43,505 bases of DNA from Holophagaceae bacterium (GTDB lineage: Bacteria; Acidobacteriota; Holophagae; Holophagales; Holophagaceae), in the NCBI GenBank assembly GCA_017859955.1, contig JAFNAB010000007.1:1-43505 (forward strand), read 5' to 3'. The notes under the pieces were generated by a model. That model did no database searches. It was given only the letters and a program-made list of their open reading frames with translations, and was not told where the DNA came from. Numbering within the stretch: position 1 is the first letter of the stretch; each line of letters opens with the position of its first letter. Shown piece after piece: positions 17,446 to 43,505 of the stretch. Both the position numbers and the translations under genes were made by a program.

Positions 17446-17551
17446 ACCCTGCGGGTAAAGATTTCCAATGGGACCTGGCGGTTCATGCTCTGGAAGCACT
17501 ATCTTTGGTACTCGGCAATCCGAAACCGATAGAATCCAGAGAGGAGGCCCC

Positions 17552-18094: not shown

Positions 18095-18117
18095 ACCTTT
18101 CCCGGCGTAATCTCCGG

Positions 18118-19083: not shown

Positions 19084-19084
19084 C

Positions 19085-20110: not shown

Positions 20111-20113
20111 GCG

Positions 20114-21819: not shown

Positions 21820-23144
21820 AGGTTCACCTGGGGAGCTGGGAGGATGAGGTCAGCCACCCGACGGGAAGTGGCCATTTCGAGGTCCTGGGGCACTTCCTGC
21901 CCAGTTCCCAGATAACTCAAGGGACGCTTGACCCGCACCAGGGTCGAGAGGATGGGACCGAAGGTGCTGGTCTCATCCAGTTTGGTGAAGATGATGCGTC
22001 CAGGCTTCAGAGGCTCGAAGCGCTGGGCCAGGTCCGCCAGATCCTTGGGCTTGGTGGTGGCGGACAGCACCAGGTGGGTCTCCACCTCCGGCAGCTCGTC
22101 CAGGAAGCGGCGGAGCTGCCCCAGAGTCTCCGTATCCTTGGGGTTGTGACCCGGCGTATCGATGAGCACCAGGGCACGGTCCTGATAGAAGCGGAGGGCG
22201 CTGCGCAGGTCCTCCACCGTCAGGGCCACATGGATGGGCACCTGGAGGATCTGGGCGTACTGCTGGAGCTGGTCCACTGCCGCCAGGCGGAAGGTATCCA
22301 GGGTGAGCAGGGCCACCTTCTGCTTGAGTTCGAGCTTGGCATAGGCCGCCAGCTTGGCGATGGTGGTGGTCTTGCCGACCCCCGTGGGGCCCACCAGGGC
22401 CGCCACCCGCATCTTGCCTGGATCCAGCTGGATGGGAGCCGCCACTGGGATGAAATTCGCGATCACCCGTCGCATGAAGAGCCGGGCCTTCTCGGGGTCC
22501 ACGGTCTCGTCACCGCACTGTTCCAGCAGCGAGCGCTGGGTGTATTCGCAAAGCCTCAGCGCGATGAGAGAGTCCACATCGTTGCCCACCAGATCGCCGT
22601 AGAGCTCCAGCAGGCTTGGAGGCAGGTGCAGTTGAGCCTGGGGCATGCCCTGTTTCTGGATGCGGCTCAGCATGGCCTTGAGCTGGTCCAGCTCCCGGAG
22701 GATGGAGGCATTCTTGGACTCCTGGTCCTTGAGGGCCTCCACCGCGCCCTTGATCTCCAGGAGCTCCCGCCGCAGGGGCTGGAGATCCACCGGTGGTGGC
22801 GGGGGGGGAGGCAGCGGCGCCCTGGAAGGCGCTGCCGGGGCAGGAGCTGCAATCACAGGTGCCCCTTCAGACCTCAGGGCCATGGGCGGATCCGTCGGCA
22901 CGGGGCGCTGCGCCCGCCCTGCCAGAGGAGGACGCAGGCCATAGGTGCCACCGACAGCCATCGCCGGCTCGGGGGCCACCGGGGCCTGGGCTTCGTCCAC
23001 CGCCGCCGTCACCTCGATGAGGGACGCGCCGGATGCGTTCTTCCGGGTCTTGGTGGAAAGGATGAAGGCCTCCTCCCCCATCTCCCGCTTGATGGTTTCC
23101 AGCGCATCCTGCATGGAGGCAGCTTCAAAGGTCTTCACGCGCAT
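21816..23144 (-). CDS. flhF: FlhF, SRP-type GTPase for flagellar placement
   Basis: A 442-aa GTPase of the SRP/SRalpha family that recruits the first flagellar components to the pole or other insertion site. The N-terminal basic domain begins MRVKTFEAASMQDALETIKREMG, as in FlhF. A Pro-rich linker (~85-120) follows, then the N domain and the G domain with GPTGVGKTTTIAKLAA (~225-240), LLTLDTFRLAAVDQL, LIDTPGH and the nucleotide-specificity stretch FTKLDET. The gene overlaps flhG by four bases. A 148-base gap containing a long stem-loop separates it from flhA, which is unusual in an otherwise overlapping operon. Confidence 0.96.
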   Translation of the reverse strand: MRVKTFEAASMQDALETIKREMGEEAFILSTKTRKNASGASLIEVTAAVDEAQAPVAPEPAMAVGGTYGLRPPLAGRAQRPVPTDPPMALRSEGAPVIAAPAPAAPSRAPLPPPPPPPVDLQPLRRELLEIKGAVEALKDQESKNASILRELDQLKAMLSRIQKQGMPQAQLHLPPSLLELYGDLVGNDVDSLIALRLCEYTQRSLLEQCGDETVDPEKARLFMRRVIANFIPVAAPIQLDPGKMRVAALVGPTGVGKTTTIAKLAAYAKLELKQKVALLTLDTFRLAAVDQLQQYAQILQVPIHVALTVEDLRSALRFYQDRALVLIDTPGHNPKDTETLGQLRRFLDELPEVETHLVLSATTKPKDLADLAQRFEPLKPGRIIFTKLDETSTFGPILSTLVRVKRPLSYLGTGQEVPQDLEMATSRRVADLILPAPQVNL

Positions 23145-23159
23145 GGGGCACCAAAAGAA

Positions 23160-23281
23160 AATTCAACCACGGAGGCACGAAGGCACGAAGGAAGCACGAA
23201 GAAAAAAGTAATTAATTTTTTATATATTCTCATTTTCTTTCTTTGCTTTTCTTTGTGTCTTGGTGTCTTCGTGGTGGAATT
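23160..23281. repeat. Long imperfect stem-loop of CACGAAGG-type units between flhA and flhF
   Basis: The left arm (23160-23190) and right arm (23251-23281) are inverted copies of a 31-base sequence with 25 identities. Four of the six mismatches would be G-U pairs when the plus strand is RNA. The arm is built of CACGAAGGCACGAAG-like units. The loop is ~60 bases, T/A-rich, with no reading frame. Sequences of this kind ('CCACGAAGACACGAAG') recur between genes of many environmental bacteria; I know of no assigned function. Its position inside the flagellar transcript means it is transcribed. Confidence 0.8.
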
Positions 23282-23292
23282 CAGCCCTTGCC

Positions 23293-25386
23293 TCATGACA
23301 CCGTCCCCAGGTTCACGACCCGCACATCCAGCGGAATCTCACTGTGGCTCAGGACGACCAGGTGGGGCATGACCCGCTCCAGGAGTCGGCGCAGGTGGGG
23401 TCGCACCACGGGATTGGTGAGCAACACGGGCTGGGCTCCCGGTAGCAGCTGGGTGATGCCCGTAGTGATTCGGTTCAGGACCTCCTGGATTCGACCAGGG
23501 TCCATGGCCAGGAAGCTGCCCCGGTCCGTGGTCTCGATGCCACCCTGAAGGGTCTGCTCCAGCACTGGATCCAGGATCAGGACACCCAGTTCGTTGTTTT
23601 CGGAAAGATGTGGCGTAGTCAGGGTCCTTCCCATGTGCTGACGGACGTATTCCGTGAGCATGAGGGGATCCCGGGTGATGAGGGCCGCATCACCCGTAGC
23701 CTCCAGGATGCGCCCCAGGTCCCGGACCGAAACCCGCTCCCTCAGCAGATTCTGCAGCACCTTCTGCAGCGTTCCCGTATTGACAACCCCCGGCACCAGT
23801 TCCTCCACTAATTTGGGCGAATGTTCCTTGAGGTTCTCCAGGAGCTGCTGGACCTCGGTCCGACCCAGGAGTTCGGGAGCCTGCTGCTTGACGAGTTCAG
23901 AAAGGTGGGTGGAGATGACCGTGGCCACATCCACCACGGTGTAGCCCATGAGCTGGGCCCGATCCCGCTGATTGTCCTGGATCCAGAAGGCAGGAAGCCC
24001 AAAGGCGGGTTCGGTGGTGGCAATGCCCTGGATATCCTCGGACGCCGTTCCCGGGTTCATGGCCAGGAATAGCCCCGGCGAGACCTCGCTGCGACCGATC
24101 TCCTCTCCCCGCAGCAGGACGCGGTAGGCATTGGCTGGGAGCTGGAGGTTGTCGCGGATACGGATGGGGGGCACCACGATACCCAGGTCCTGGGCCATCT
24201 GGCGCCGGATGGCCTTGATGCGCTCCAGCACCGTGCCGCCCTGGGCCGCATCCAGCAGGGGGATCAGCCCATAGCCGACCTCAAGGCCCAGGGGATCCAC
24301 CTTGAGCAGAGCCTCCACTTTCTCCGGGCCCTCAGCGGGCTTGAGCTTATCCTTGGCATCCGCCAGGGCCTTTTCATCCGCCTTCTGATGACCCAGCTTC
24401 CAGGCGGAATAGGCCAGGATGCCAAAGATGATGCCCATCACCCAGAAGGGCACCAGGGGCAGCCCCGGAACGGCGCCGAAGAGAATGAGCACTGATGCCG
24501 CGATGGCCAGCGGGCGGTGGTCGATGCCGAGCTGGGCGACGATCTGGGAACCCAGATTAAGGGTCTGGCTGCCACTTCGGGTGGTCAGAATGGCACCGCC
24601 CACAGAGATGAGCAGGCTGGGAATGGCCGTCACCAGACCATCACCCACCGTCAGCAGCGTGAAAGTCTCCATGGCCTGCATCACGGGCACGTTGTACTTG
24701 ATGATCCCGATGAGGATGCCCGCCACAATATTGACGGCCAGGATGATCAGGGCCGCGACGGCATCCCGCTGGGTGAACTTCACGGCACCGTCCATGGCGC
24801 CGTAGAAGCTGGCCTCTTCCTGGATATCCTTGCGCCGCCGCCGGGCTTCGTGCTCATCGATGTACCCGGCGTTCAGGTCCGCGTCGATGGCCATCTGCTT
24901 GCCGGGCATGGCGTCCAGGGTGAAGCGTGCAGTCACTTCCGCGATGCGGCCGGCACCGTGGTTGATCACCAGGAACTGGATGGCCAGCAGGATGAGGAAT
25001 ACCACCAGGCCGATGATGTAGCTGCCGCCCACGACGAACTGCCCGAAGGCCCGGATCATGTGGCCTGCGGCGTCGGGCCCCTGCTCGCCGCCGTATAGCA
25101 GGATGCGGCGGGTGGCGGCCACGTTCAGCGAGAGCCGGAAGAGGGTGACGATCAGAAGCACCGAGGGGTAGGCGTTGAACTCCTGAGGTCGGGCCACATA
25201 CATGCCCACGATGAGGATCAGCAGAGAGATCGTGATGTTCAGAACAATGAGCACATCCAGCACGAAGGCCGGAAGCGGCAGCACCATCACCACCAGAACG
25301 ATGAGTACGAAAACCGGCGCAGCCAGATCCACCCGCTTGGAGAGGCGAGCCATGTACGGCAGTAATCGGTCCAGGAAAGTCAGCAT
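23293..25386 (-). CDS. flhA: Flagellar export gate protein FlhA
   Basis: A 697-aa inner-membrane component of the flagellar type III export apparatus. The N-terminal ~330 residues contain eight hydrophobic helices. The conserved loop with DGAVKFTQRDAVAALIILAVNI and GDGLVTAIPSLLIS is the FHIPEP region facing the cytoplasm. The C-terminal ~350 residues form the domain that docks chaperone-substrate complexes (PLGLEVGYGLIPLLD, PEPAFG-like segment, LREREVSVRDLGRILEATGDA-type helix). Length matches the family. It is the first gene of the operon, with a sigma-54-like promoter just upstream. flhB, often adjacent, is not in the window. Confidence 0.97.
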   Translation of the reverse strand: MLTFLDRLLPYMARLSKRVDLAAPVFVLIVLVVMVLPLPAFVLDVLIVLNITISLLILIVGMYVARPQEFNAYPSVLLIVTLFRLSLNVAATRRILLYGGEQGPDAAGHMIRAFGQFVVGGSYIIGLVVFLILLAIQFLVINHGAGRIAEVTARFTLDAMPGKQMAIDADLNAGYIDEHEARRRRKDIQEEASFYGAMDGAVKFTQRDAVAALIILAVNIVAGILIGIIKYNVPVMQAMETFTLLTVGDGLVTAIPSLLISVGGAILTTRSGSQTLNLGSQIVAQLGIDHRPLAIAASVLILFGAVPGLPLVPFWVMGIIFGILAYSAWKLGHQKADEKALADAKDKLKPAEGPEKVEALLKVDPLGLEVGYGLIPLLDAAQGGTVLERIKAIRRQMAQDLGIVVPPIRIRDNLQLPANAYRVLLRGEEIGRSEVSPGLFLAMNPGTASEDIQGIATTEPAFGLPAFWIQDNQRDRAQLMGYTVVDVATVISTHLSELVKQQAPELLGRTEVQQLLENLKEHSPKLVEELVPGVVNTGTLQKVLQNLLRERVSVRDLGRILEATGDAALITRDPLMLTEYVRQHMGRTLTTPHLSENNELGVLILDPVLEQTLQGGIETTDRGSFLAMDPGRIQEVLNRITTGITQLLPGAQPVLLTNPVVRPHLRRLLERVMPHLVVLSHSEIPLDVRVVNLGTVS

Positions 25387-30133: not shown

Positions 30134-30796
30134 CTAGAGTTCGATGACGCGGCAGTCCGTGTCGACGACGATATCGGCGTCGGTCTTTTCCTTGATGAAC
30201 TCGGCCGTGAAGGGCGCGAAGACTTCCCGCAGGTGGAAGCGGTCGCCCACGACCTCGAAGAGGCCGAGATCCGTCACCACGTAGTTCACTTCGCGGGCGG
30301 CGGTCAGGGGCAGGGTGCAGTGGCGCTTCATGCGGGACTTGCCCGAGGGCTCGAAGTGCAGCGTGGCGGCGATCACCACCCGGGCACCGGAAACGAGATC
30401 CATGGCGCCGCCCATGCCGGGAACCATCTTGCCCGGCACCTTGTAGTTGGCCAGGTTGCCCTGCTGATCGACCTCAAGCACACCCAGGACCGTGTAGTCC
30501 ACGTGGCCACCGCGGATGATGCCGAAGCTGGTGGCGCTGTCGAAGAAGCAGCCGCCCGTGAGGACGGTGACGGGGGCGCCGCCGGCGTTCACGATGTCGT
30601 AGTTCTCCTGGCCGGCCTCGGGCGCGGGGCCCAGGCCCATCATGCCGTTCTCGGACTGGAGGATGATGGTCACGCCCTCGGGGATGTAGTTGCCCACCAG
30701 GGTCGGGAGACCGATGCCCAGGTTGACCACATCACCGTTGTGGAACATGCGGGCGATGCGCTTGGCGATATTGTCTTTGTTCGCTACGTATTCCAT
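30134..30796 (-). CDS. atoA: CoA-transferase subunit B (acetoacetate/butyrate type, AtoA/CtfB-like)
   Basis: A 220-aa class I CoA-transferase beta subunit. The catalytic glutamate is E49 in SENGMMGLG, which forms the covalent CoA thioester. GIGLPTLVGNYIPEGV and GAMDLVSGARVVIAATLHFEPSGKSR are also typical. With the alpha subunit encoded just upstream it moves CoA between acyl groups such as acetoacetyl-, butyryl- and acetyl-CoA. Lysine fermenters use such an enzyme as butyryl-CoA:acetoacetate CoA-transferase, and the lysine 5,6-aminomutase genes 10 kb away in the same direction make this role attractive; substrate choice cannot be read from sequence. The gene starts 10 bases after the alpha subunit ends. 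Confidence 0.92.
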   Translation of the reverse strand: MEYVANKDNIAKRIARMFHNGDVVNLGIGLPTLVGNYIPEGVTIILQSENGMMGLGPAPEAGQENYDIVNAGGAPVTVLTGGCFFDSATSFGIIRGGHVDYTVLGVLEVDQQGNLANYKVPGKMVPGMGGAMDLVSGARVVIAATLHFEPSGKSRMKRHCTLPLTAAREVNYVVTDLGLFEVVGDRFHLREVFAPFTAEFIKEKTDADIVVDTDCRVIEL

Positions 30797-30806
30797 GCCT
30801 GACCCC

Positions 30807-31493
30807 TTACATGTCCAGCTTTTCAGCTTTGACGATGAAATCCACGAAGATCGATGCGGTCTGGACCTCGTTGGGATCGATCTCGCCGACCTCGACCAGT
30901 TCCTCCACCTCGGCGATCACCAGCTTGGCTGCGGTGGCCATTACGAGGTTGAAGTTGCAGGCGGTCCCGGCATAGACCAGGTTGCCGGCCTTGTCGCCCT
31001 TCTTGGCCTTGATCAGGGCCACGTCAGCGGTGAGGGGCAGCTCCAGAAGGTAGGCCTTGCCATCCACCGTGATGACCTGCTTGCCTTCCTGGACCTCGGT
31101 GCCCACACCGGTGGGGGTCAGGATGCCGCCCAGACCAGCGCCGCCGGCCCGGATCTTCTCGGCCAGGGAGCCCTGGGGCACCAGCTCGACCTCAGTCTCA
31201 CCCGCGTTCATCTGGCGCTGGGTTTCCTGGTTCAGGCCGATGTGGCTGGCGAAGATCTTCTTGAACTGCTTGTTGGCCACCAGGTGCCCGATGCCCGTGA
31301 TGCGGCCGGACTTGAAGTCGTGGGCGGCAGTGTCGGTGCTGATCAGGGTCAGCCCCTTGGGGGCGATTTCCTTGACGGCCTGGATGACGGTGTGAGGGGA
31401 GCCGGAGGCCATGAAGCCACCGATCATGATGGTGTCCCCTTCCTTGATCTTGCCTGCGGCTTCAGCCGCAGTAATGATGGGTTTCTCTATCAC
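30807..31493 (-). CDS. atoD: CoA-transferase subunit A (AtoD/CtfA-like)
   Basis: A 228-aa class I CoA-transferase alpha subunit. It contains AGKIKEGDTIMIGGFMASGSPHTVIQAV, GLNQETQRQMNAGETEVELVPQGSLAEKIRAGGAGLGGILTPTGVGTEV and TADVALIKAKKGDKAGNLVYAGTACNFN, the usual CoA-binding and subunit-interface stretches. The start is GTG 31493, preceded by AGGAGG at seven bases; a longer frame upstream to 31535 has no ribosome-binding site of its own. It is the first gene of a two-gene operon with atoA. About 195 bases separate it from the end of the peptidase operon upstream on the same strand, with no clear terminator. Confidence 0.92.
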   Translation of the reverse strand: MIEKPIITAAEAAGKIKEGDTIMIGGFMASGSPHTVIQAVKEIAPKGLTLISTDTAAHDFKSGRITGIGHLVANKQFKKIFASHIGLNQETQRQMNAGETEVELVPQGSLAEKIRAGGAGLGGILTPTGVGTEVQEGKQVITVDGKAYLLELPLTADVALIKAKKGDKAGNLVYAGTACNFNLVMATAAKLVIAEVEELVEVGEIDPNEVQTASIFVDFIVKAEKLDM

Positions 31494-31687
31494 TAGCCCC
31501 TCCTGTTTGAGACATAGGCAACCTGCGGGATCCACACCCGCACTTGATCAGACTCGCCCGAGCGGAAGTAAGGCCACACGCTCCGCACAACCAACCTTGC
31601 CGCTCCAATATCCTAGCCACTTTTTCGACCCGACTGACCAGGGAAGCGCATGGCAAATCTAAAAAATTTGTGACCGGGGTCGCAGAC

Positions 31688-33172
31688 TCAATGGGAGAGG
31701 AACCAGGCCGTGGCCAGGGCCAGACGGGCCATGCGCCGCACCTGGGCCGGGTCCAGAGCCGCGGCCGTATCCCCGGGCAAATGGTAGTCGGGGAAGAAAT
31801 TGCCAAAGAATCGGATGAAGGGCACCCGGAGCCTCGCAAAGTCCCGATAGTCGCTCCCCCCGCTGGCGCCATCACCGGGATCCAGCAGGAGGGCCATCCC
31901 GCTGGCCCTGCCCGCGCGGTCCAGGACCTGAGCCAACCCTGGCGTCCAGGCGGCATAGCCAGGATCGTTGAAGTCTTCCGGGTGGATCCGGGCCAGCAGA
32001 GCCGCCGACTGCCCGGGAGCCACCTCCTCCAGGCGCTTCCGCAGCTCCTCGGCCGTCCATGGATGGCCGATCATGTCCAGATTCAGATAGGCCCGGGTGT
32101 GTTCCATGGACCAGAGGGGGTGGCGGGTGTAGTGGCCGGAACCGAATTTCCCGTCCTCCTCCCCGGTCCAGAACGCGAAGATAATCGGACAGCGCGTCGC
32201 TTCGGAGCTGCCAGCAAGGGCACGGATGATCTCCAGCAGGGCCGACACACCCGAGGCATTGTCATCGGCACCCGGATGGAGCAAACCCCCGGCCATTCCC
32301 AGGTGATCCATGTGGGCCCCGATCACCAGGGCCTCCTGGCCCCGGCCCGGAAGGTAGCCGATCAGGTTGGCCTGCGTCCACCGCTCCACCTTTCCGGTGA
32401 TCTCCACCCGCCCCCGACTCCCCGGCGCCAGCGACGGCAGGGCGCCCTTCACCCGGACCAGGGGCGGCTCCTCGGAGGTCCTTACCCCAGCCTCGGGGCG
32501 GAAGAAGACCTCCTCACTCAGGGGCTCCAGTTCCTCCTCGAAGGCGATGACCGCCCGGGCGCCCGCCTTCTCCAGCAGGGCCAACCGGGCATCGTAGCGT
32601 TCCCCCAGCTTGGGGGAGGCCCAGCGCTCCAGGCGTTCCGGGGTCCTCCAGGCCTTCCCTTCCGGCACACCACCCCGGAGCAGCACAATCTTGCCCTTCA
32701 GGTCCAGGCCCTTGAGATCATCGTGTCCGAGTTCCGGTTCCTGGATGCCATAGCCCACCTGGATCAGTTCGCCTTCCATGACTTCCGGCGCCCGCTGGGG
32801 CATGCGGCAGGCTTCCCCATGCTGGAGCTTCAGGCCCGACAGCTGGAGGGTGCCACCCAGGCGGGAAATGCGCCGTAGCGGCACCGGCTGGACCATCGAG
32901 GCCTGTCCAGGGACCGGCTGAAGCCCCAGGGCCTTCATCTGAGCATGGAGATAGCGTTCCGTGCGGGCCAGCCCCCGGGTTCCCAGGCCCCTGCCCTGCT
33001 GTTTCGGATCCGCCAGAAACTGGATGTGGGCCTTGATCCGGGCCGCATCGACCCCATCCAGGGCCGTCTTGAGGTCCCCGGTGGCCGCTTCAGCGGCCGA
33101 TGGCACCACCAGGCCGGGGACCTCCGCCCGAAGGCTCAGGGCGAGACAGAGGAGGAGCGCCCCGCGCCGCAT
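31688..33172 (-). CDS. Exported M28-family zinc aminopeptidase
   Basis: A 494-aa secreted or periplasmic metallopeptidase. Signal peptide MRRGALLLCLALSLRA is followed by a protease-associated insert (~130-270) and the catalytic domain. Metal ligands and base are in place: H287 (GAHMDHLG), D303 (GADDNASG), E338/E339 (WTGEEDG), D366 (LNLDMIGH) and H464 (YHLPGDT). Family M28 enzymes remove N-terminal residues from peptides. The ATG overlaps the stop of the permease gene (TGATG), so it is coupled to it as the last gene of the operon. A frame running further upstream inside the permease gene is not real coding sequence. Here it could trim peptides released from cyanophycin or from protein; the exact substrate is unknown. 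Confidence 0.9.
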   Translation of the reverse strand: MRRGALLLCLALSLRAEVPGLVVPSAAEAATGDLKTALDGVDAARIKAHIQFLADPKQQGRGLGTRGLARTERYLHAQMKALGLQPVPGQASMVQPVPLRRISRLGGTLQLSGLKLQHGEACRMPQRAPEVMEGELIQVGYGIQEPELGHDDLKGLDLKGKIVLLRGGVPEGKAWRTPERLERWASPKLGERYDARLALLEKAGARAVIAFEEELEPLSEEVFFRPEAGVRTSEEPPLVRVKGALPSLAPGSRGRVEITGKVERWTQANLIGYLPGRGQEALVIGAHMDHLGMAGGLLHPGADDNASGVSALLEIIRALAGSSEATRCPIIFAFWTGEEDGKFGSGHYTRHPLWSMEHTRAYLNLDMIGHPWTAEELRKRLEEVAPGQSAALLARIHPEDFNDPGYAAWTPGLAQVLDRAGRASGMALLLDPGDGASGGSDYRDFARLRVPFIRFFGNFFPDYHLPGDTAAALDPAQVRRMARLALATAWFLSH

Positions 33173-34608
33173 CACACCGGCCCCCAGTGGAAGAGTAGGG
33201 TCGGTGGGATGAGCAGCAGGAAGGCCACCACCACCAGGATCAGCATGAGGGGTAAGAACCATTTGGCCCAGCGCTCCCAGGGGATCTTGGCCGCCCCCAG
33301 TACGCCCATGGTCACGGCGCTGGTGGGCAGGATGGGGTTGATGAGCTCGGACAGCTCGAAGCTGTATACGCAGGTCTGCCGGGTAATGCCCACCAGATCC
33401 GACAGGGGCGACATCACGGGCATGGTGAGGGCCGCCTGGGCCGTGCCCGAATGGATGAAGAAGTTGATGACGCACTGCACCAGGAACATCACCTGGGCCG
33501 TGATCGCCTTGGGCAGGACCTGGATCACCATGGAGCCCCCCAGCAGCAGGGTGTCCATGATCTGGGCCTGGGTGGCAATGACCAGCAGGGCCCGGGCACA
33601 GGACACGATGAGCATGACCCCCACCATATCCTTGGCCCCGGTCACGAAAAGCTGGGCCATGCGGCTGGGCCCGATCCGGCTCACCAGGCCCATCAGGATC
33701 CCCATGGCCAGGAAGAGGGCCGCGATGGGCTCCAGCCCCCACTTGTATTTCAGGACCCCGAAGACCAGGAGAACCAGTGCGGCGAAAAAGACCGTCAGGG
33801 CCGCCACCTGCCGGAGCTGCCAGCGTTCCTGGTCATCCCCGGCATGGGTGGTCTCCCGGGCCTGGTCGATGTCCCAGACCAGACTGGCCTCGGGATCCCG
33901 CTTGATCTTCCGGGCGTAGCGCATCACATAGGCGGTCGTCACGCTCACCACCACTACCCAGGCGCAGACCCGGTATTCGAGGCCCGAGAAGGCCGGAACC
34001 CCGGCGATTCCCTGGGCCACACCCACCGTGAAGGGATTGAAGAAGGCGCAGGCGAAGCCCGAGGCCGCCCCCAGGAAGGGGATGGCGAGGCCCACGATGG
34101 AGTCGTAACCCATGGCCCGGGAGAGGGCGATGATGATCACCACGAAGGGGATCAGTTCCTCGGCCATGCCGAAGATCGCTCCCATCAGGGAGAAGACCAC
34201 CATCAGGACCGGAATGAATAGCCACTCCAGCGTCGGGTGCCCGCTCAGGCTGAGCACCAGTCGCCGGATGCCGAACTCCACCGCCCCGGTCTCCTGGAAG
34301 ATGGCGAAGCTGCCGCCGATGATGAAGAGGAAGGAAATGAGGGTCGCCCCGTCCATGAAGCCCTTGATGGGGGCCAGCAGGATCATGTGGAGGCCCAGGT
34401 AGTGCTTGGGCAGGAAATGGAAGCTCCCGGGCACCGGGACCTTCATCTGACTGCCATCCGGCAGCACTTTCACCATCCGCTGGAACTCCCCGGAGGGCAC
34501 CACCCAGGAGAGGAGGAGCACCAGCAGCACCAGGCTTCCCACGACCACCAGGGTGTGGGGCATCTTCAGGGACTGGGCCAGCTCGCGTAAGCCCTTCTTG
34601 TCAGACAT
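33172..34608 (-). CDS. YfcC-family inner-membrane permease
   Basis: A 478-aa integral membrane protein with about 12 hydrophobic helices, of the YfcC group in the ion-transporter superfamily (relatives include the DcuC and ArsB/NhaD-like carriers). Telling segments are MPHTLVVVGSLVLLVLLLSWVVPSGEFQR at the N-terminus, FGMAEELIPFVVIIIALSRAMGYDS, and NFFIHSGTAQAALTMPVMSPLSDLVGITRQ. Proteins of this family often lie beside peptidases and amino-acid degradation genes and are thought to carry amino acids or small peptides. The gene starts nine bases after the isoaspartyl dipeptidase gene, suggesting that it brings in beta-Asp-Arg or exchanges its products. That is inference. Confidence 0.85.
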   Translation of the reverse strand: MSDKKGLRELAQSLKMPHTLVVVGSLVLLVLLLSWVVPSGEFQRMVKVLPDGSQMKVPVPGSFHFLPKHYLGLHMILLAPIKGFMDGATLISFLFIIGGSFAIFQETGAVEFGIRRLVLSLSGHPTLEWLFIPVLMVVFSLMGAIFGMAEELIPFVVIIIALSRAMGYDSIVGLAIPFLGAASGFACAFFNPFTVGVAQGIAGVPAFSGLEYRVCAWVVVVSVTTAYVMRYARKIKRDPEASLVWDIDQARETTHAGDDQERWQLRQVAALTVFFAALVLLVFGVLKYKWGLEPIAALFLAMGILMGLVSRIGPSRMAQLFVTGAKDMVGVMLIVSCARALLVIATQAQIMDTLLLGGSMVIQVLPKAITAQVMFLVQCVINFFIHSGTAQAALTMPVMSPLSDLVGITRQTCVYSFELSELINPILPTSAVTMGVLGAAKIPWERWAKWFLPLMLILVVVAFLLLIPPTLLFHWGPV

Positions 34609-34617
34609 GCTTCATCC

Positions 34618-35781
34618 TCATTCGAAAGTGCCCTTGACCTTGAGTTCCCCGGCCTCCATCATCACTCGGCCCTTGGCGATGACGGTATGGATACGGAGGG
34701 TGTCGGGTTCCAGCAGCACGAGGTCCGCGTCGAGCCCCTGGGCCAAGCGGCCCTTCTGCTTCAGCTTGAGGATCCGGGCCGGATTGGAGGTGATGGTCCT
34801 CAGGGCGGTGGCCAAGGGCACGCCCTCCTTCTGGACCGCCTCCCGCACCGCATTGAAGAGCGTGGTCACTCGGCCCACGGAGATCCCCCGGAGCTGGCCC
34901 TGGGCGTCGAACTCCGGCAGGCTGCCCTGGCCATCGGAGGTGAAGGTGATGTGGCCAGGATCGACCCCGGCTTCCAGCATGCGGCGCAGGGCTTCCCCGC
35001 AGGGCACCTCCCCCTCGTCCAGGAAGGCCTGGACCGTAGAGGTTGTGAAGTCCACGAAGCCGCCAGCCTTGGCGTAGGCGATGCCCTCTTCGAAGAGCTG
35101 GGGATTGCGGTTGATGTGGGTCGGGAGCATCTGGGTCGCAGGGATCTCGGTCTCCTCGAGAATGCGCCGGAGCATGTCCAGGCCGCGCTTGCCGTCCCCG
35201 AGGTGGACGTTGACCAGTCCGGCCTTGCCCGAGAGCATGCCCCCCCGCCGGGTCGTGGCCACCAGGTGGGCGAAGGCCTCGAAGCCGGGCTGGCTGGAGC
35301 GGTGGTCTGACACGGCCACCTCCCCGGCCCCGATGACCTTGTCCAGGAAGAGGATGTCCTCCTCGATGGAGCCCAGCATGGTTTTCATGGGGATGCCGTA
35401 GGAGCCCGAGTAGAGGTAGGTGCTGAGCCCTTCCTCCTCCAGGCCCTTGGCCTTGGCCAGGAGGCCCTGCATGCTGCGGGTATGGCCGTCCGTGCCCAGG
35501 CAGCCCACCACCGTCGTGATGCCGCCCAGGATGGCGTCCGTCAACTTGAGGCTGGGGGTCCGGCTGGCGAAACCGCTCTCACCGCCCCCACCCATCATGT
35601 GGACATGGCCATCGATGAAACCGGGCACCGCCAGGAGCCCCTTGGCATCCAGGCTTCGGCAGTACTTCCCGGGGACCTGGATATCCGCCTCCAGGTGAAG
35701 GATGCGCCCGCCTCCCAATAGGAGATCCTGGGTCCCAAGGGGTTCCGGCGCCAGGATCTCGGCGTTCTTGATCAGCAGCAT
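34618..35781 (-). CDS. iadA: Isoaspartyl (beta-aspartyl) dipeptidase, IadA type
   Basis: A 387-aa amidohydrolase that hydrolyses beta-aspartyl dipeptides. Metal ligands are visible: H59 and H61 (DGHVHMMGGGGESG, with substrate-binding E68), H193 (VNVHLGD), H222 (LPTHINRN) and catalytic D283 (TSDGQGS). The C-terminus ends VKGTFE as in E. coli IadA. The residue that is the bridging carbamylated lysine in E. coli (K162, before the SDHRS motif) appears here as E154 in GAGEVAVSDHRS, a variant I believe occurs in other bacterial IadA proteins. There is no signal peptide, so it acts in the cytoplasm. Positioned between an exported cyanophycinase and a permease, its likely substrate is beta-Asp-Arg, giving Asp and Arg. 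Confidence 0.92.
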   Translation of the reverse strand: MLLIKNAEILAPEPLGTQDLLLGGGRILHLEADIQVPGKYCRSLDAKGLLAVPGFIDGHVHMMGGGGESGFASRTPSLKLTDAILGGITTVVGCLGTDGHTRSMQGLLAKAKGLEEEGLSTYLYSGSYGIPMKTMLGSIEEDILFLDKVIGAGEVAVSDHRSSQPGFEAFAHLVATTRRGGMLSGKAGLVNVHLGDGKRGLDMLRRILEETEIPATQMLPTHINRNPQLFEEGIAYAKAGGFVDFTTSTVQAFLDEGEVPCGEALRRMLEAGVDPGHITFTSDGQGSLPEFDAQGQLRGISVGRVTTLFNAVREAVQKEGVPLATALRTITSNPARILKLKQKGRLAQGLDADLVLLEPDTLRIHTVIAKGRVMMEAGELKVKGTFE

Positions 35782-35803
35782 GGGAACTCCAATTTATTAA
35801 TCA

Positions 35804-37264
35804 TTATTCTTCAACAACTCTCAGGACCGGAAGGGTCCCATCGGCCTGGGCCAGGGCCCGGAAGGGCGCATAGCTGTAGAGCCCGAAGAGCATGCAAGGT
35901 TCCAGCACCTGGATGGCCCGCCGCGCCAGGGGCTGGTCCAGGGGCACCAGGAGGGAACCCACAGGTGCCTCCAGCTCCCGCGCCGCGTCCCGGGCCACGA
36001 TCTGGCGGCTGGGGTGGCGGTGGTAGAGCTCGTCGAAGGGCGCCTCGTAGCGCAGGAGGCGGCAGGGCTCGGCCTTCAACCGCCTGGGGGCTCCCAGGAC
36101 CTCGTACCGGAGCCCCTGGGCCTCCAGCACCGGCCGGAAACGCTCCGCGCTGCGGGCCTCGATCAGGTAGGCCCGGGGGGTGGGCACGCTCTGCTTGACC
36201 ACCAGATCCGTCATGGCATTGGCGGTGGGAACCTTCAGGGTGCGGCCCGTGGCCAGCTCCCGCACCGGCACTTCGCTGACCTTGCCCCCCAGATTGGCCC
36301 AGAAGACATTGGTGGCGATGAAGGGGGGCAGCGGGGCCCGGCGGGCTTCCTCCGCAAGGCCCACCACCCGGCGCCGCCAGGAGACATCCCCCAGCAGATG
36401 GTCGTAGAGAGCCCGGTAGGCCCGGACCCGCTGGGGCAGATCCACCTGGGGGTCCGGGATTTCATGGCGCACCGAGGACTCAATGATGAAGGACACCGCC
36501 CCCAGGGTGCCCAGGCTGTTGCGGCCATCGTCCACCTCGGGGGTCGAAGGCCGCAACTCCGCGTCGGGAGGCGGTCCGCCCACCGCGTAGCGGTTGAAGG
36601 GAATCCCGGCGTTTGCGAGGACGGTCCGGGCTCCCTCCACCCGCTCCAGGGCAGCGGATTTCACGGTTTCAGGGATCAAGGGATGGTTGGCGGCGTCCAG
36701 GGTGATGAGGGGCCAGAAGACCCACCCCTTCTCCAGGTAGCCTCCGGGCGCCCGCTCGAACTCGTGACTGTCCGTGGCCAGGTGGGGCTGGACGCGCCGG
36801 GCCACCCGATGGAGGGCCTGGGTTTCGGGCTGTTCCAGGAGGATGTGATCGCGGTTGAGGTCCTCGCCGACCCCGTTGAGACGGGTGTGGGCCTCGGCCC
36901 CATCGGGATTGAGCATGGGCATAAGGTAGAGATCCACATCCTCCGGCAGGGCCTCGGGATGCTGGGCCAGCTCCTGGATCCACTGGAGCTGGGCCTCCTT
37001 CCCGGCCACCTCGTCGCCGTGCTGCTGGGCGTAGAAGAGCACCCGGCACTGGGCCTTCTTGGCACCCCGGCGCAAATGGACCAGGAAGATGCTGCGGCCC
37101 TGGTGGCTGCGCCCCTCCTCCGTGACCGTGATGAAGCCGGGCCTTTCCACCCGGTGCAGCAGGGCGGCCATGTCGGCATAGGATGTCAAAGGCCCCTTAG
37201 CGTATGCCGGGGCCAATAGGGACAGCAGGAGCAGGCCTGCGGGCCGGAGATGCGGGATGAGCAA
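35804..37264 (-). CDS. Exported M14-family zinc carboxypeptidase
   Basis: A 486-aa protein with signal peptide (MLIPHLRPAGLLLLSLLAPAYA). The M14 fold is shown by H82-x-x-E85 (QQHGDEVAGKE), NPDG (119-122), the GEDLNRD stretch (134-139) supplying Asn and Arg, the third zinc ligand H167 (TDSHEFE) and a probable catalytic E262 (FIIESS). Such enzymes remove C-terminal residues or side-chain amide-linked groups. The ~190-residue C-terminal part has no recognised domain. It starts eight bases after the cyanophycinase gene. In this operon it may trim cyanophycin ends, free Arg from the polymer, or act on ordinary peptides; I cannot decide which. Confidence 0.85.
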   Translation of the reverse strand: MLIPHLRPAGLLLLSLLAPAYAKGPLTSYADMAALLHRVERPGFITVTEEGRSHQGRSIFLVHLRRGAKKAQCRVLFYAQQHGDEVAGKEAQLQWIQELAQHPEALPEDVDLYLMPMLNPDGAEAHTRLNGVGEDLNRDHILLEQPETQALHRVARRVQPHLATDSHEFERAPGGYLEKGWVFWPLITLDAANHPLIPETVKSAALERVEGARTVLANAGIPFNRYAVGGPPPDAELRPSTPEVDDGRNSLGTLGAVSFIIESSVRHEIPDPQVDLPQRVRAYRALYDHLLGDVSWRRRVVGLAEEARRAPLPPFIATNVFWANLGGKVSEVPVRELATGRTLKVPTANAMTDLVVKQSVPTPRAYLIEARSAERFRPVLEAQGLRYEVLGAPRRLKAEPCRLLRYEAPFDELYHRHPSRQIVARDAARELEAPVGSLLVPLDQPLARRAIQVLEPCMLFGLYSYAPFRALAQADGTLPVLRVVEE

Positions 37265-37272
37265 GGTGCTTC

Positions 37273-38100
37273 CTATTTGAGCAATTGGCGGGTGGCCAGA
37301 TCGATACCCTGGCCAGGGCCCAGGAGGTGAATCGTCATGCCCTGGAAACCCGGGGGGGAAAGGCGCATCCCGGTGGGATCAAAGACCATGACCGCGTGAT
37401 CCCCCAGGACCCGGGCTTCACCGCCCTTGACCACCAGGGCCGTGGCCTCATCGATGCCCAGCCCCAGGTGCTGCGGGTGGTCCATGAGCAGGCTGAAGAG
37501 ACGGTTCTCGCGATTCCGCCGCAGGAAGTGCTGGTCCACGATGCAGAAGTCCGGCAGGAAGCCCAGGCCCTCCCGGGTCCGGTAGGCCCCGGCGCCGATC
37601 TCGGTCAGGGCCTCCTTGCCGTTCCGATCCTCGCCATTGAGCATGATCCGGGACATGATGGCGGCCCCAGCACTGGTGCCACCCACCACCGCCCCCGCCT
37701 CATAGCGTTCCCGCACAAGACGGTGCAAAGGGGTGCCCAGGACCGCGTCGGCGGTGAGGTTCTGGTCTCCACCGGAGAACCAGAATCCCGAGCAGGTCCC
37801 GGCGGCCTCCAGCACAGCAGGGGCGGCGGCATCCCCCCGGGTCTTGACCCGGAGGGGCACCAGGGTGAGGCCGACCTTGGCAAGGTCCTCTTCCCACTCC
37901 GCCAGGACTTCCTCCGGCGACCCGGAAGCCGTGGGGATCACGCCGATCCGAGCACCCTTCCCCCCGGCCCCCTGGACGAAGGCCTGGAAGATAGCGTCCG
38001 GCATCCCGCCCCCCCCCACGATCACCAGGGTGCCCTTGGGGGAAGGCGAGGCAGCGAACAGCGCGGCCGAAAAGAGAAGGGAAAGCAGACGTTTCATCAT
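37273..38100 (-). CDS. cphB: Exported cyanophycinase (peptidase family S51)
   Basis: A 275-aa serine exopeptidase that degrades cyanophycin, the multi-L-arginyl-poly-L-aspartate storage polymer, to beta-Asp-Arg dipeptides. The fold is glutamine-amidotransferase-like: VIVGGGG, VIPTASGS, FWFSGGDQN, the nucleophile elbow GGTSAGAA with S143, VDQHFLRRNRENRL (189-202) and LGLGIDEATALVV. The GGDQ, DQHF...R..RL and GIDE motifs together are those of cyanophycinase rather than of dipeptidase E. A signal peptide (MMKRLLSLLFSAALFAASPS) points to an extracytoplasmic enzyme, like the exported CphE type of heterotrophs rather than the cytoplasmic enzyme of cyanobacteria. No cyanophycin synthetase is in the window, so external polymer is the likely food. 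The gene begins one base after the TonB receptor stop. Confidence 0.85.
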   Translation of the reverse strand: MMKRLLSLLFSAALFAASPSPKGTLVIVGGGGMPDAIFQAFVQGAGGKGARIGVIPTASGSPEEVLAEWEEDLAKVGLTLVPLRVKTRGDAAAPAVLEAAGTCSGFWFSGGDQNLTADAVLGTPLHRLVRERYEAGAVVGGTSAGAAIMSRIMLNGEDRNGKEALTEIGAGAYRTREGLGFLPDFCIVDQHFLRRNRENRLFSLLMDHPQHLGLGIDEATALVVKGGEARVLGDHAVMVFDPTGMRLSPPGFQGMTIHLLGPGQGIDLATRQLLK

Positions 38101-38101
38101 C

Positions 38102-40834
38102 CTAGAAGGTCACCCGAAGGCCCAGACGGGCGCGGCGGCCGCGATCTCCATCGGTGGGGGCCTGGTAATCGGAATAGACCGACTCGCCGTCCCATGCCGA
38201 GTTCACCCGGGTGTTCCAGGAGGTGACATTGCCCTGGTTGAGGGCATTGAACAGATCGACAAAGCCTTCCATCTTGACGCCTTTGGAGAGGTCGACCATC
38301 TGGCTGACCCGGATGTCGACCAGGCTCCGTCCCGGGTAAGACCTCGAACCCAGCGGCTCGGCATTGACGTAGTAGCGTTCGGCGGGCATGGCGTAGGTCC
38401 GCCAAGTGGGGGTCCAGTGCTCGCCGCTCAGGTAAGTGTAGTTAACGGAGACCCGCATAGCCCAGGGAAACTCGTAGGTCGCGCGAGCCTTGATCTCGTT
38501 GTCGTTGTATCCCGGCAGGAGACCGTAGGAGTTGATGGTGTTGTTGGGATTGGCGAAGACATCGACGTAGCCGTCGGACTTCTGAACATTGCCGTAGAGC
38601 TTGGCCCGGGTGTAGCTGACCATGAGGCTCCAGTGGTCCTTCAGTTCGCGCTCGGCAGAAGCGGTGATCGCCCAATAGCGCCGCTTGGCCCGCTTGTCGT
38701 TGCCCACGGTGTACTGGTGGTCTGAGTATGAAGTGGTATCGAAGTCGTAAGCGGCCTTGCCCGTCTCCGGGTTCACAAAGGTCTCAAGAAGGCCGGAAAG
38801 ATCGACCCCGTCCAGGGCCTTGTCGTGGCGCACCAGGGCATCCTTGAAGTCCCGGTAGACCCAGGAGGTGGATGCCGACCAGATGCTCATGAACTTACGA
38901 GTCACGGACAGCGTCACTTCATCCGTATGCGGCTGTTTGGCGTTTGAATCGACGGGCGAGTAGTTGTCCACCGTCTTGTAGAGGTTGGCCGAAGAGAGGT
39001 CCACCGCAGGCCAGGTGCTCGGATCGTTCGGATTCAGGACCGTTCCGACCCCATCGGAATCCGTGGCCCAGGTGTAGTAGTTCTTGACGGGAATCGCCCA
39101 GCGAACCGAACGGTCGATGAAGTATGTCGAGTAGCCGGCATAGTAGCGCCCAAGGTGGGCGTTCAGAATGGTCTGCTGGTCCTGGGTCAACGCGACCTTC
39201 AAGCCAAAACGGGGGGCGAAGGTGCTCTTGTTCCAGCGATAGGAGTCTTCACCGTAGAACCGTGCCTTAAACTGCTCGAACCTCAGGCCTGGGCGGATCG
39301 TGACACGGTCATTAATCTTCCACTCATCGGAAATAAAGGAGGCAAAGCGTCGGGTGCGCTGCTTCCCTGCCCAGCCGCCGCCGGTGATGATGAAGTCAGA
39401 ATAGACTTGGCCCTCATCCACGTAGGCGTTGAGGTTAGCCCCCCCGGGATAGCGTTGGAGTTCTTCGTTCGTCGCGGTCTCACCCTCAACGCCAATCTTG
39501 ATGGAGTGGCTATCCGAAGGCACGATCAGGCTCGGAAGGAACCAGTCGAAGGTGGCTGAGAGGTTGGTGCGGTCGCGGTAGTTCTTCTGCTCGGTCTGGG
39601 CATTATTGTAATACTCGAAGCCGTTGTATACGTCTCCGGTATCCAGGGGCATGGCTTGTCCGTTGTAGGTATTCAGGTCATAACGCCCACCGTAGCCGAA
39701 GGTCTTGACTGTAAGGACTTTGTCCGGACCGAGGACCTGGGTCCAGGTGGCATTGAAGGAGCGGTTGGGTGCAATCTCCTTGAGGGTGGCGATGGGAAGG
39801 GTGGAGTAGTCGAGACCGCGATTTTCCCGCTTGAGGTAATCGTACTCACCCATCAGTTCCAGGGTCGTGGCATCGTTGACCTGCCAGGTGAACTTGGCCA
39901 AGCCCTTGACCTGGCTGGTGCCGATAGAGGAGACCGCATTGATCGGAGTGGACTGGTCCTCGACTCGCTCGAAGGAGGCGAAATACCAGATCTTGTCCTT
40001 GAGGATCGGCCCACCCACATTGAGGGCGACATCCCAGTCCTTGGTCGGAGCAAGATCACCAGAGGACGCCCAGGAGGGCTTGGCCTCCCACTTGGAACTG
40101 CCGTAGTAGGCGTTGAGACTCCCCTCGATGGTGTTGCCGCCCCGCTTGACCAGGCCGTTGATGTACCCGCCGGTGAAGCCGCCGAATTCAGCTCCGGCTC
40201 CCATGCCGCCCACCTGGACCTCAGAGAACCAATCCATGTTGGGGAAGATCCACTGGGTGCCGCCCGCGGGGTCCCCCACGTTCATGCCGTCCATCATGTA
40301 GGCATTCTCGCCCGCTGCCCCGCCCCAAGCATGGCCACCATTCACGCCCGGAGTCATGTCCATGATCGCGGTCAGGCTCCGTTCAGCAGGAAGCGTCGCA
40401 AGCTTTTCGGGACTGTAGTTCTGGTTGAAGGAGGTGCTGGCCGTCTCCGCCGCCGCGGCTGTGGCCACCACTTCGACGGTGGTGCTCGCCGCAGCCTGGA
40501 ACTTCCAGTTGACGGTGGAGGTCTTGCCCAGTTCCAGGACTTCCTTCCCCACCAGGGTGTTGAGCCCCGCGGCCTCCACCGTAATGCGGTATGGCCCGGG
40601 GGGCAGAAGCGGAAAGCGGTAACTGCCATTTTCAGCGGTTTTTGCGACCCGCTCACCCATGAGGGCCGGGGAAGTCACCCGCACCGTGGCCGCCGCCAGG
40701 GGCTTGCCAGAGGGGTCCTTCACGACACCCATGAGGGCGGCGGTTGTGGTGCTCTGGGCCACGAGGGCCACCGGCGCCACGACCAGCGCCAAGGTCAAAC
40801 GGCTGATCACAGATAGTCCTTTAGCACGCAACAT
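38102..40834 (-). CDS. TonB-dependent outer-membrane receptor with carboxypeptidase-regulatory-like domain
   Basis: A 910-aa outer-membrane protein. Signal peptide (to about residue 28, VALVAQS), then a carboxypeptidase-regulatory-like beta-sandwich (~30-115; GVVKDPSGKPLAAATVRVTS, GSYRFPLLPPGPYRITVEAAG), a plug domain (~130-250; MDGMNVGDPAGG, GGFTGGYINGLVKRGGN) and a 22-strand-type barrel ending in the aromatic terminus LRVTF. This Oar-like architecture is abundant in Acidobacteriota and Bacteroidota for uptake or surface binding of large ligands. Start ATG 40834 has GGGAGGG four bases upstream; TTG 40855 would precede that site. As first gene of the six-gene operon, with the cyanophycinase one base downstream, it probably binds the polymer or takes in its fragments. 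Specificity is inferred from context only. Confidence 0.92.
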   Translation of the reverse strand: MLRAKGLSVISRLTLALVVAPVALVAQSTTTAALMGVVKDPSGKPLAAATVRVTSPALMGERVAKTAENGSYRFPLLPPGPYRITVEAAGLNTLVGKEVLELGKTSTVNWKFQAAASTTVEVVATAAAAETASTSFNQNYSPEKLATLPAERSLTAIMDMTPGVNGGHAWGGAAGENAYMMDGMNVGDPAGGTQWIFPNMDWFSEVQVGGMGAGAEFGGFTGGYINGLVKRGGNTIEGSLNAYYGSSKWEAKPSWASSGDLAPTKDWDVALNVGGPILKDKIWYFASFERVEDQSTPINAVSSIGTSQVKGLAKFTWQVNDATTLELMGEYDYLKRENRGLDYSTLPIATLKEIAPNRSFNATWTQVLGPDKVLTVKTFGYGGRYDLNTYNGQAMPLDTGDVYNGFEYYNNAQTEQKNYRDRTNLSATFDWFLPSLIVPSDSHSIKIGVEGETATNEELQRYPGGANLNAYVDEGQVYSDFIITGGGWAGKQRTRRFASFISDEWKINDRVTIRPGLRFEQFKARFYGEDSYRWNKSTFAPRFGLKVALTQDQQTILNAHLGRYYAGYSTYFIDRSVRWAIPVKNYYTWATDSDGVGTVLNPNDPSTWPAVDLSSANLYKTVDNYSPVDSNAKQPHTDEVTLSVTRKFMSIWSASTSWVYRDFKDALVRHDKALDGVDLSGLLETFVNPETGKAAYDFDTTSYSDHQYTVGNDKRAKRRYWAITASAERELKDHWSLMVSYTRAKLYGNVQKSDGYVDVFANPNNTINSYGLLPGYNDNEIKARATYEFPWAMRVSVNYTYLSGEHWTPTWRTYAMPAERYYVNAEPLGSRSYPGRSLVDIRVSQMVDLSKGVKMEGFVDLFNALNQGNVTSWNTRVNSAWDGESVYSDYQAPTDGDRGRRARLGLRVTF

Positions 40835-41029: not shown

Positions 41030-41761
41030 TCAGCCCCGCTTTTCCAGCATCCGGTCGATGATGAAGGTGGCCACGTGGTCCGCGTAGCTGCCCTTGCCGA
41101 AGCCCCCGTCAAAGCCCAGCTCCACCGCCAGCTTGTTGCCGATTCGGGTCCCGCCGGCGATGAGAATGAAGCGCTCCCGGAGGCCCCGGGCCTGAAGCAG
41201 TTCGATGAATTCCGTCAGGTTCTGGAGGTGGACATCCTTCTGGGTCACGATCTGGCTCACGAGAATGGCGTCGGCGTTGACCTTCACGGCATAGTCGATC
41301 AGCTTCTCGTTGGGCACCTGGGCCCCCAGGTTGTGGGCCTCGATCTGGCCATAGCGCTCCAGGCCGTAGTGGTGGTTGTAGCCCTTCATGTTCATGATGG
41401 CGTCGATGCCCACCGTATGGGCGTCAAAGCCCGTGCAGGCCCCCACCACCACGAGTTTCCGACCGATCCTCGTCTGGATGACCTCGCAGGCCTCGGCCAT
41501 GGTGTAGACCTTCTCCCCCACGGCATCCTCGATCTGGATGGTGTCGTAGTCGATGCCCAGCTCGGTCTTGCCGTAGGCCACGTACATGGAAAAGCCGTTG
41601 GCGAGGGCACTGGAGTGGACCACGTCCACGTGCCGGAAGCCCAGCTTCTCAACGAAGAGCCGCGCCGCCTCGCGCCCCCGGGGGCCCTCAGGCACGGGAA
41701 GGGTGAAAGAAAATTGCACAGCCCCGTCATCCAGGGTGTCGCCATAGGGACGAATGATCAT
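41030..41761 (-). CDS. kamE: Lysine 5,6-aminomutase beta subunit (KamE)
   Basis: A 243-aa B12-binding subunit of the adenosylcobalamin- and PLP-dependent enzyme that moves the terminal amino group of D-lysine or L-beta-lysine to carbon 5. The cobalamin motif is DAHTVGID (H115 the lower ligand), and K126 (MNMKGY), eleven residues later, corresponds in spacing to the lysine that holds PLP in the Clostridium enzyme (H133/K144). The Rossmann-type domain continues with ILVSQIVTQKDVHLQNL and LIAGGTRIGNKLAVELGFDGGFGKG, as in other B12 mutases. ATG 41761 has AGGAG eight bases upstream. kamD lies upstream on the same strand but 575 bases away, separated by a large palindromic element; the pair is usually adjacent. 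Confidence 0.93.
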   Translation of the reverse strand: MIIRPYGDTLDDGAVQFSFTLPVPEGPRGREAARLFVEKLGFRHVDVVHSSALANGFSMYVAYGKTELGIDYDTIQIEDAVGEKVYTMAEACEVIQTRIGRKLVVVGACTGFDAHTVGIDAIMNMKGYNHHYGLERYGQIEAHNLGAQVPNEKLIDYAVKVNADAILVSQIVTQKDVHLQNLTEFIELLQARGLRERFILIAGGTRIGNKLAVELGFDGGFGKGSYADHVATFIIDRMLEKRG

Positions 41762-41789
41762 GGTTGTCGCTCCTGAGAATGATTTAACT

Positions 41790-42336: not shown

Positions 42337-43505
42337 TCAGAGCCCCAGCTCGGCCTCGAGGTGCGCCTCGAAGGGATTGAAGTAGCCAGGGCCCTTCTTG
42401 ACCAGGCCCTCCAGGCCCTTGCCCATGTCCCGGCTGCGCTTGATATCGGCGAAAAGGCCCTGTTCGATGGCCTCCATGAGGCCGGTCTGCTCGATCTCCC
42501 GCAGGAAGCCCAGGGTCTGCCCCAGGACCTCGTGGGCCCGGCGCACGATGACCCCGTCCTGGCGGAACTCGATCTCATCAGCCAGCCCCTGCATGTTGGC
42601 CATGACGTACTTGGCGTTCTCCAGGGCCAGGAAACGGTCCTGCATGTAGGGAGTGTGGATGGCCTCGGTGAGCATGCCCAGGAGGTGGATGCCCTGCCCC
42701 GTGGCCTGGGAGACGAAGTTGAAGAGAGCGTTCTGGACCACCCCCTTGAAGATGTCCCCGGTCATGAACTTGGTGGGCGGCATGTACTTCAGGGGCGCGT
42801 CGGGGAAGATCTCCCGGGCCATCTGGGCCTGGGCCAGCTCCAGCAGGAAGCCGTTAGGGATGTCCGGGTTCATCTCGAAGGCGTGGCCCAGGCCCATGAG
42901 TTTCGGGGGGAGCCCGGCGGCGTAGGCGAAGCGCTCGTTGAGAAACTGGCTGGCCAGCACCGTGTAGGCCTTTTCCACCGCATCCGAGGTGGTCAGGTAG
43001 TTGTCCTCACCGGTGTTGATGATGATCCCCGCGTAGGCATTGATCATCCGGCTGAACTTCTGGTCCACGAAGGTCCGGTACATGTTGATGTCGCGGAAGA
43101 GGATGCCGTACATCGAGTCGTTCAGCATCATGTCCAGGCGCTCCAGGGCGCCCATGGCCGCGATCTCCGGCATGCACAGCCCCGAGGCGTAGTTGGTGAG
43201 GTGGATGTAGCGCTGCTGCTGGTCCACCACCTCGTCCAGAGCCGCACGCATGATGCGGAAGTTCTCCTGGGTGGCGTAGGTGCCCCCGAAGCCCTCGGTG
43301 GTGGCACCGTAAGGGACGTAATCCAGCAGGGACTGGGCCGTGGTGCGGATCACCGCCACCACATCGGCCCCCTGCTCCGCCGCCGCCTGGGCCTGCTTGA
43401 CGTCCTCGTGGATGTTCCCGGTGGCCACGATGAGGTAGAGCATCGGGCTGTGGTTGCGGCCCGCGTACTGGGTGAGCTTGGCCTCGCGGTGGGCGCGATT
43501 GCCCT
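42337..43505 (-). CDS. kamD: Lysine 5,6-aminomutase alpha subunit (KamD), 5' part outside the window
   Basis: The last ~389 codons of the ~515-aa catalytic subunit; the frame runs off the window edge, reading NRAHREAKLTQYAGRNHSP before the first internal ATG. Recognisable stretches include LYLIVATGNIHEDVKQAQAAAEQGADVVAVIRTTAQSLLDYVPYGATTEG, NYASGLCMPEIAAMGALERLDMMLNDSMYGILFRDINM and DAPLKYMPPTKFMTGDIF, typical of the KamD TIM barrel that holds the substrate, PLP and the adenosyl group. With KamE it forms the alpha-beta enzyme of lysine fermentation to acetate and butyrate. The other pathway genes (kdd, kce, kal, kamA) are expected upstream, beyond 43505. Confidence 0.94.
   Translation of the reverse strand, partial: GNRAHREAKLTQYAGRNHSPMLYLIVATGNIHEDVKQAQAAAEQGADVVAVIRTTAQSLLDYVPYGATTEGFGGTYATQENFRIMRAALDEVVDQQQRYIHLTNYASGLCMPEIAAMGALERLDMMLNDSMYGILFRDINMYRTFVDQKFSRMINAYAGIIINTGEDNYLTTSDAVEKAYTVLASQFLNERFAYAAGLPPKLMGLGHAFEMNPDIPNGFLLELAQAQMAREIFPDAPLKYMPPTKFMTGDIFKGVVQNALFNFVSQATGQGIHLLGMLTEAIHTPYMQDRFLALENAKYVMANMQGLADEIEFRQDGVIVRRAHEVLGQTLGFLREIEQTGLMEAIEQGLFADIKRSRDMGKGLEGLVKKGPGYFNPFEAHLEAELGL

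Follow-up and report, generated by a model that had tools for sequence, protein, structure and literature searches.

What is a cyanophycinase doing next to a TonB-dependent receptor and an inner-membrane permease, in a genome where no cyanophycin synthetase is found? The question is raised by a six-gene operon in a 43,505-nt stretch of DNA (hereafter, the window) from a Holophagaceae bacterium, a member of the Geothrix family of the Acidobacteriota (contig JAFNAB010000007.1, assembly GCA_017859955.1). Cyanophycin is a nitrogen-rich storage polymer whose uptake by other bacteria has been little studied. We propose, with a probability of slightly more than three in four, that the operon serves to import and digest external cyanophycin made by other bacteria; it would then supply candidates for both the outer- and the inner-membrane steps of uptake.

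Organization of the operon

The operon occupies positions 40834 to 31688 of the window, with all genes on the minus strand. The first one encodes an Oar-type TonB-dependent receptor (38102..40834, 910 aa) with a CarboxypepD_reg domain and an outer-membrane barrel (PF13620, PF25183). It is followed by an exported S51 cyanophycinase (37273..38100, 275 aa; 160.6 bits against TIGR02069, cut-off 126.6), an exported M14 metallocarboxypeptidase (35804..37264, 486 aa; PF00246), a cytoplasmic IadA isoaspartyl dipeptidase (34618..35781, 387 aa; 508.7 bits against TIGR01975, cut-off 331), an inner-membrane permease of the DcuC/YfcC family (33172..34608, 478 aa; PF03606, 300.6 bits) and an exported M28 aminopeptidase that we consider accessory (31688..33172, 494 aa; PF04389). 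The genes are separated by gaps of 1, 8, 22 and 9 bases, and the last two overlap by one base. N-terminal hydrophobic signal segments are present on the S51, M14 and M28 proteins and on the receptor, and there is none on IadA. A previous sequence-only reading of this DNA had given the same gene order, spacing, signal peptides and catalytic motifs, all of which we reproduced. Promoter and terminator scans across the operon gave nothing above chance. Elsewhere in the window (3102-5570, 6701-13453 and 15181-25386), several large sensor kinases of the hybrid type and a response regulator with an HD domain lie beside a flagellar block (FlhA, FlhF, FliA, FliM and FliN).

The enzymes and their expected substrate

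The S51 protein, the only cyanophycinase-family S51 in the host genome, carries its catalytic Ser143 within the motif GTSAGA, together with the motifs DQHF-x2-RNR-x2-R and GIDE. Alignment to Synechocystis CphB (3EN0) shows counterparts of its catalytic residues Ser132, His174 and Glu201; with 7UQV also aligned, both the catalytic Ser-His-Glu and the substrate motif of the DQHF region are present. As a class assignment from family and residues, the enzyme would hydrolyse cyanophycin to beta-Asp-Arg or beta-Asp-Lys. One could argue that it provides immunity to microcin C-type peptidyl-nucleotide antibiotics instead, as some S51 peptidases do (MccG; PMC9239234). MccG, however, belongs to an S51 clade other than that of the cyanophycinases (PMC9239234), and the protein described here is exported and linked to a receptor, IadA and a permease, so we rejected this explanation, to which we give almost no chance.

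Regarding IadA, a single copy scores over the cut-off in the host genome, and its PDB relatives are 7cdh, 8dqn and 1onw. Since the IadA enzymes of cyanophycin clusters are promiscuous towards beta-aspartyl dipeptides (PMC10206079), the presence of this gene is no proof of the substrate. In the M14 protein, the zinc and catalytic residues H82, E85, H167 and E262, along with N137 and R138, are invariant across 18 homologues. The fold matches of its predicted model, which is weak at residues 226-248, are metallocarboxypeptidases of several specificities. The side chains of cyanophycin each end in a free arginine carboxylate, a geometry that a carboxypeptidase could be expected to attack.

The sequence-only reading had also stated that no synthetase is present, and this is borne out genome-wide: the best partial match to cyanophycin synthetase in the host assembly, which is 95% complete, reaches 49.7 bits against a cut-off of 850. 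A search of the same genome for arginine deiminase gave no hit.

The operon is conserved among Holophagaceae

Scanning GTDB genomes with S51 as a query, we recovered 22 loci of the Holophagaceae type and one locus from Acidovorax; one of the 22 comes from a MAG labelled Bacillota that carries the same operon. Among named strains, Geothrix limicola has the locus (L009). All six genes are found in the same order and on the same strand in 13 of the 22 loci and the first four in two more, while the remaining seven are interrupted by contig ends and agree in order as far as they are visible. Gene order is thus kept far beyond chance. M28 is the terminal gene in 13 of the 15 complete Holophagaceae loci and is the least conserved, least specific and least tied part of the operon. 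One genus has neither the permease nor M28 beside the other four genes. One genome has two copies of the operon (L008 and L023), the first of them with a gene for a C45-like autoproteolytic hydrolase between IadA and the permease (L008, 13697-14896). A second type of locus in the family, seen in L102 (1500-9205) and L103 (1-6173), has an RpiR gene, a divergent S51 of another subfamily and a receptor-IadA(-permease) arrangement, with no M14.

A scan that uses S51 as a query can only find loci bearing S51, so the independent test is the co-occurrence of orthologues. Thirteen of 37 Holophagaceae genomes hold an S51 orthologue (≥55% identity), and these same 13 hold orthologues of M14 (≥59%) and IadA (≥66%) in the same cluster. 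One additional genome, G029, has M14 and IadA without S51, but its M14 gene begins at base 6 of the contig, which would place S51 beyond the contig end. Because it co-occurs with S51 in this way, M14 appears to be a specific part of the operon; an M14 of the same type is also found near a receptor and S51 in two further families (L119 and L135/L185). Neither the 22 loci nor the 37 genomes contained close homologues of the operon lacking S51 and IadA, a pattern that the earlier reading had named as speaking against it.

These data bear on a different explanation, in which the operon would be a general scavenger of isoaspartyl peptides from aged protein necromass: the receptor would import them, M14, M28 and S51 would trim them, and IadA would handle the beta-Asp dipeptides. 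Such a role would fit the general nature of the M14 and M28 peptidase families, the promiscuity of IadA (PMC10206079) and the loci L102 and L103, where receptor-IadA(-permease) is accompanied only by a divergent S51. We nevertheless consider it unlikely, given that the S51 protein scores above the TIGR02069 cut-off with the CphB residues conserved, that within the family M14 and a close IadA orthologue never occur without an S51 orthologue (with G029 read as above), and that S51 recurs elsewhere with a receptor or a permease but without IadA.

Two types of S51 loci across the Acidobacteriota

Cyanophycinase-family S51 genes were detected in 97 of 297 Acidobacteriota genomes, and we examined the neighbourhoods of 78 S51 loci. 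At the 15 loci where S51 is adjacent to CphA1, the protein has no N-terminal hydrophobic segment where start sites could be placed, and neither a receptor nor a DcuC permease was ever seen within 3 kb. Away from CphA1, most S51 proteins have such a segment, including nearly all of those adjacent to a receptor or a permease. Segments were scored by script, except for five g6 cases that fell outside it, four of which were read by eye.

Outside Holophagaceae, a DcuC/YfcC gene lies no more than 3 kb from S51 in 9 of the 47 loci away from CphA1, each in a different family-level group (L132, L134, L136, L137, L138, L140, L141, L142 and L154), and the permease is usually the only DcuC-family gene of its genome. 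With 0-2 copies per genome, as counted in 14 genomes picked mostly for having the pair, about 0.09 cases would be expected by chance against the nine observed; even at five copies per genome, the chance of the observed pairing stays below 1e-8. A receptor is likewise found within 3 kb in 9 of the 47 loci, in two cases on the other strand, but this linkage is weaker than that of the permease because receptors are commoner. Taken alone, the difference in permease or receptor presence between S51 loci with and without linked CphA1 is not significant outside Holophagaceae (Fisher p = 0.18). In the S51 tree, CphA1-linked genes cluster together and those linked to a receptor or a permease are spread over at least 7 changes, so their linkage does not stem from one recent inheritance. 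In other families, S51 recurs beside a receptor or a permease without IadA, which points to S51 as the core of these loci. From these sequence comparisons, the exported S51 away from CphA1 is the putative scavenging type across the phylum. Signal peptide and neighbours on one side and CphA1 on the other would give a genomic rule separating cyanophycin eaters from storers.

Storage loci are also found in Holophagaceae, with IadA-S51-CphA1-CphA2 clusters at L097, L100 and L108, and genome G284 has both kinds: a storage cluster (S51-CphA1-CphA2, L121) and a complete scavenging operon (L122). S51 and IadA are joined in the storage clusters L097, L098 and L117, and one could therefore imagine that the operon in the window turns over a store of the cell's own. 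Against this, the genome has no CphA, the S51 protein has a signal peptide, and the storage-type S51 proteins branch elsewhere in the tree; we rejected this explanation on these three grounds as very improbable. Taken together, the conserved unit, the lack of a synthetase and the non-storage type of S51 make external scavenging well supported by comparison. The function proposed from the sequence thus stands as far as scavenging goes; the cargo of the receptor and the permease is a part that we still infer.

Candidate transporters and a proposed route

The AlphaFold model of the receptor, which has modest overall confidence (a mean pLDDT of 63), resembles TonB-dependent transporters in every fold match; YddB/PqqU and the ferredoxin receptor FusA rank first, and siderophore receptors are also among them. 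Homologues 38-57% identical lie directly upstream of S51 in relatives, making this the most variable protein of the operon, and one clade of Geothrix-type loci has a distinct receptor lineage. Sequence searches of the PDB returned no relative of either the receptor or the permease, and by BLAST none of the host-genome paralogues sharing the N-terminal domain has a similar barrel. A family search of the operon proteins for a SusD-like surface lipoprotein was negative; the gene that directly follows the receptor is S51. The receptor would import cyanophycin or its fragments.

The permease had been called YfcC. Its membership of the DcuC family holds (PF03606), but it reaches 347 bits against the YfcC equivalog NF008611, below the cut-off of 500, so the safe name is YfcC-like DcuC family. 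It is the only DcuC-family gene in the host genome and the sole candidate in the operon for delivering substrate to the cytoplasmic IadA. Its recurrent linkage to S51 suggests that it imports the beta-Asp-Arg dipeptide or the released amino acids, though it may instead act as an arginine or ornithine exchanger. In this manner a candidate substrate is linked to a little-characterised family of permeases, whose only annotation is that of a putative basic amino acid antiporter.

The route that we propose would start with cyanophycin from dead cyanobacteria or other producers, pieces of which the TonB receptor would take across the outer membrane. The exported S51, acting in the periplasm or on the cell surface, would trim the polymer to beta-Asp-Arg or beta-Asp-Lys, with the exported M14 and M28 presumably preparing or trimming chain ends or clearing contaminating peptides. 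The DcuC/YfcC permease would then move the dipeptide or freed amino acids across the inner membrane, and IadA, as expected from its family, would cleave the dipeptide into Asp and Arg or Lys in the cytoplasm.

A lysine-fermentation setting in the window genus

In the genus of the window, the operon lies between genes of a lysine-fermentation cluster, all of them on the minus strand. Its upstream edge is the gene of the lysine 5,6-aminomutase beta subunit (41030..41779; NF052385), beyond which lies the alpha subunit (42337..43443; 705.6 bits against NF052384, cut-off 600), with a frame open to the window end. The downstream edge is given by the CoA-transferase subunits A and B (30134..31535; PF01144, TIGR02429 and TIGR02428). 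In six other Holophagaceae with a lysine cluster, aminomutase beta and CoA-transferase directly adjoin each other, no more than about 0.1 kb apart. Judging from these arrangements, the operon was, most simply, inserted into the lysine cluster, and this is seen in the window genus only. In a separate locus, L177 (G008:C158), the frame matching lysine 5,6-aminomutase beta has one internal TAA.

Most Geothrix-type loci have a gene for an RpiR-family regulator directly upstream of the receptor, and there is none at this place in the window genus. There, a regulator 71-75% identical to the usual RpiR of the operon heads the lysine cluster, whose order is RpiR, kdd, aminotransferase, kce and aminomutases; this stretch is contiguous in G001 and lies on contig C101 in the host genome. 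No such RpiR was found in the parts of the lysine clusters examined in four relatives. An RpiR akin to that of the operon at the head of the lysine cluster suggests joint control of both systems, as circumstantial evidence. The operon had been described as self-contained, which does not quite hold: it lacks the RpiR gene found next to it in relatives, and it is embedded in a lysine-fermentation cluster.

This setting raises the possibility of a special case of cyanophycin scavenging, in which a lysine-rich polymer would be degraded and its lysine would feed the surrounding fermentation. The position between lysine genes that are contiguous in relatives, the RpiR shared in kind by both systems and the fact that some CphA1 enzymes incorporate lysine (PMC10206079) all fit with it. 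However, relatives have the same operon with no adjacent lysine cluster, no tested sequence feature separates Lys from Arg specificity, and co-location may only reflect shared regulation of amino-acid metabolism, so that we hold this variant to be quite unlikely. A bolder picture would have the DcuC/YfcC permease as a dedicated beta-aspartyl dipeptide importer of Acidobacteriota scavengers, with the Oar receptor and the exported M14 specific to the system, and with the system of this genus fused to lysine fermentation under one RpiR, so that amino acids derived from the polymer feed an energy pathway; we offer it tentatively, as possible but on balance doubtful.

Comparison with known systems

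In the Bacteroidota, the cyanophycin locus of Salinivirga cyanobacteriivorans was reportedly likened to polysaccharide utilization loci by Ben Hania et al. in 2017, and it is said to have a SusC/SusD-like complex. By description, both loci unite a cyanophycinase, iadA and a transporter; the operon in the window differs in having an Oar-type receptor with no SusD, together with a DcuC/YfcC permease and M14/M28. The term 'cyanophycin utilization locus', for a scavenging locus with cyanophycinase, iadA and transporter, is credited to Ben Hania et al. 2017 in PMC10206079. All of these elements are found in our operon, with transporter genes of predicted cargo and no synthetase. More generally, cyanophycinase is clustered with an isoaspartyl dipeptidase in 45 of 52 genomes without cphA1 (PMC10206079).

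Other precedents are closer in single aspects. In the alphaproteobacterium Citromicrobium sp. JLT1363, a TonB receptor lies beside a cyanophycinase and cyanophycin was proposed as its substrate in 2012; the available part of that account reports no IadA-permease-M14 operon (PMC3400609). Within the same phylum, Candidatus Sulfomarinibacter was described in 2021 as having a cyanophycinase with a signal peptide, no synthetase and, in one genome, IadA, and no receptor-permease operon is described in the available part of the source (PMC8528874). PMC11561045 also notes cyanophycinase in Holophagaceae. With these accounts from 2012, 2017 and 2021, the earlier statement that no receptor-permease locus of this kind had been described does not hold.

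Storage clusters of CphA1, cyanophycinase and IadA (PMC10206079; here L097, L098 and L117) share S51 and IadA with the operon, but they include the synthetase, their S51 has no signal peptide, and they have neither a receptor nor a DcuC permease. CphE of Pseudomonas anguilliseptica is likewise an exported S51 acting on external polymer, a likeness by description only. Our literature search found neither a cyanophycinase linked with YfcC or DcuC nor the composition of Oar receptor, M14 and DcuC/YfcC permease without SusD. As loci of this type have been published and this composition was not found among them, the operon is a variant of a known locus type; what is new is its Oar receptor/M14/permease composition, the recurrent pairing of S51 with the permease, and the insertion, in one genus only, into a lysine cluster headed by RpiR.
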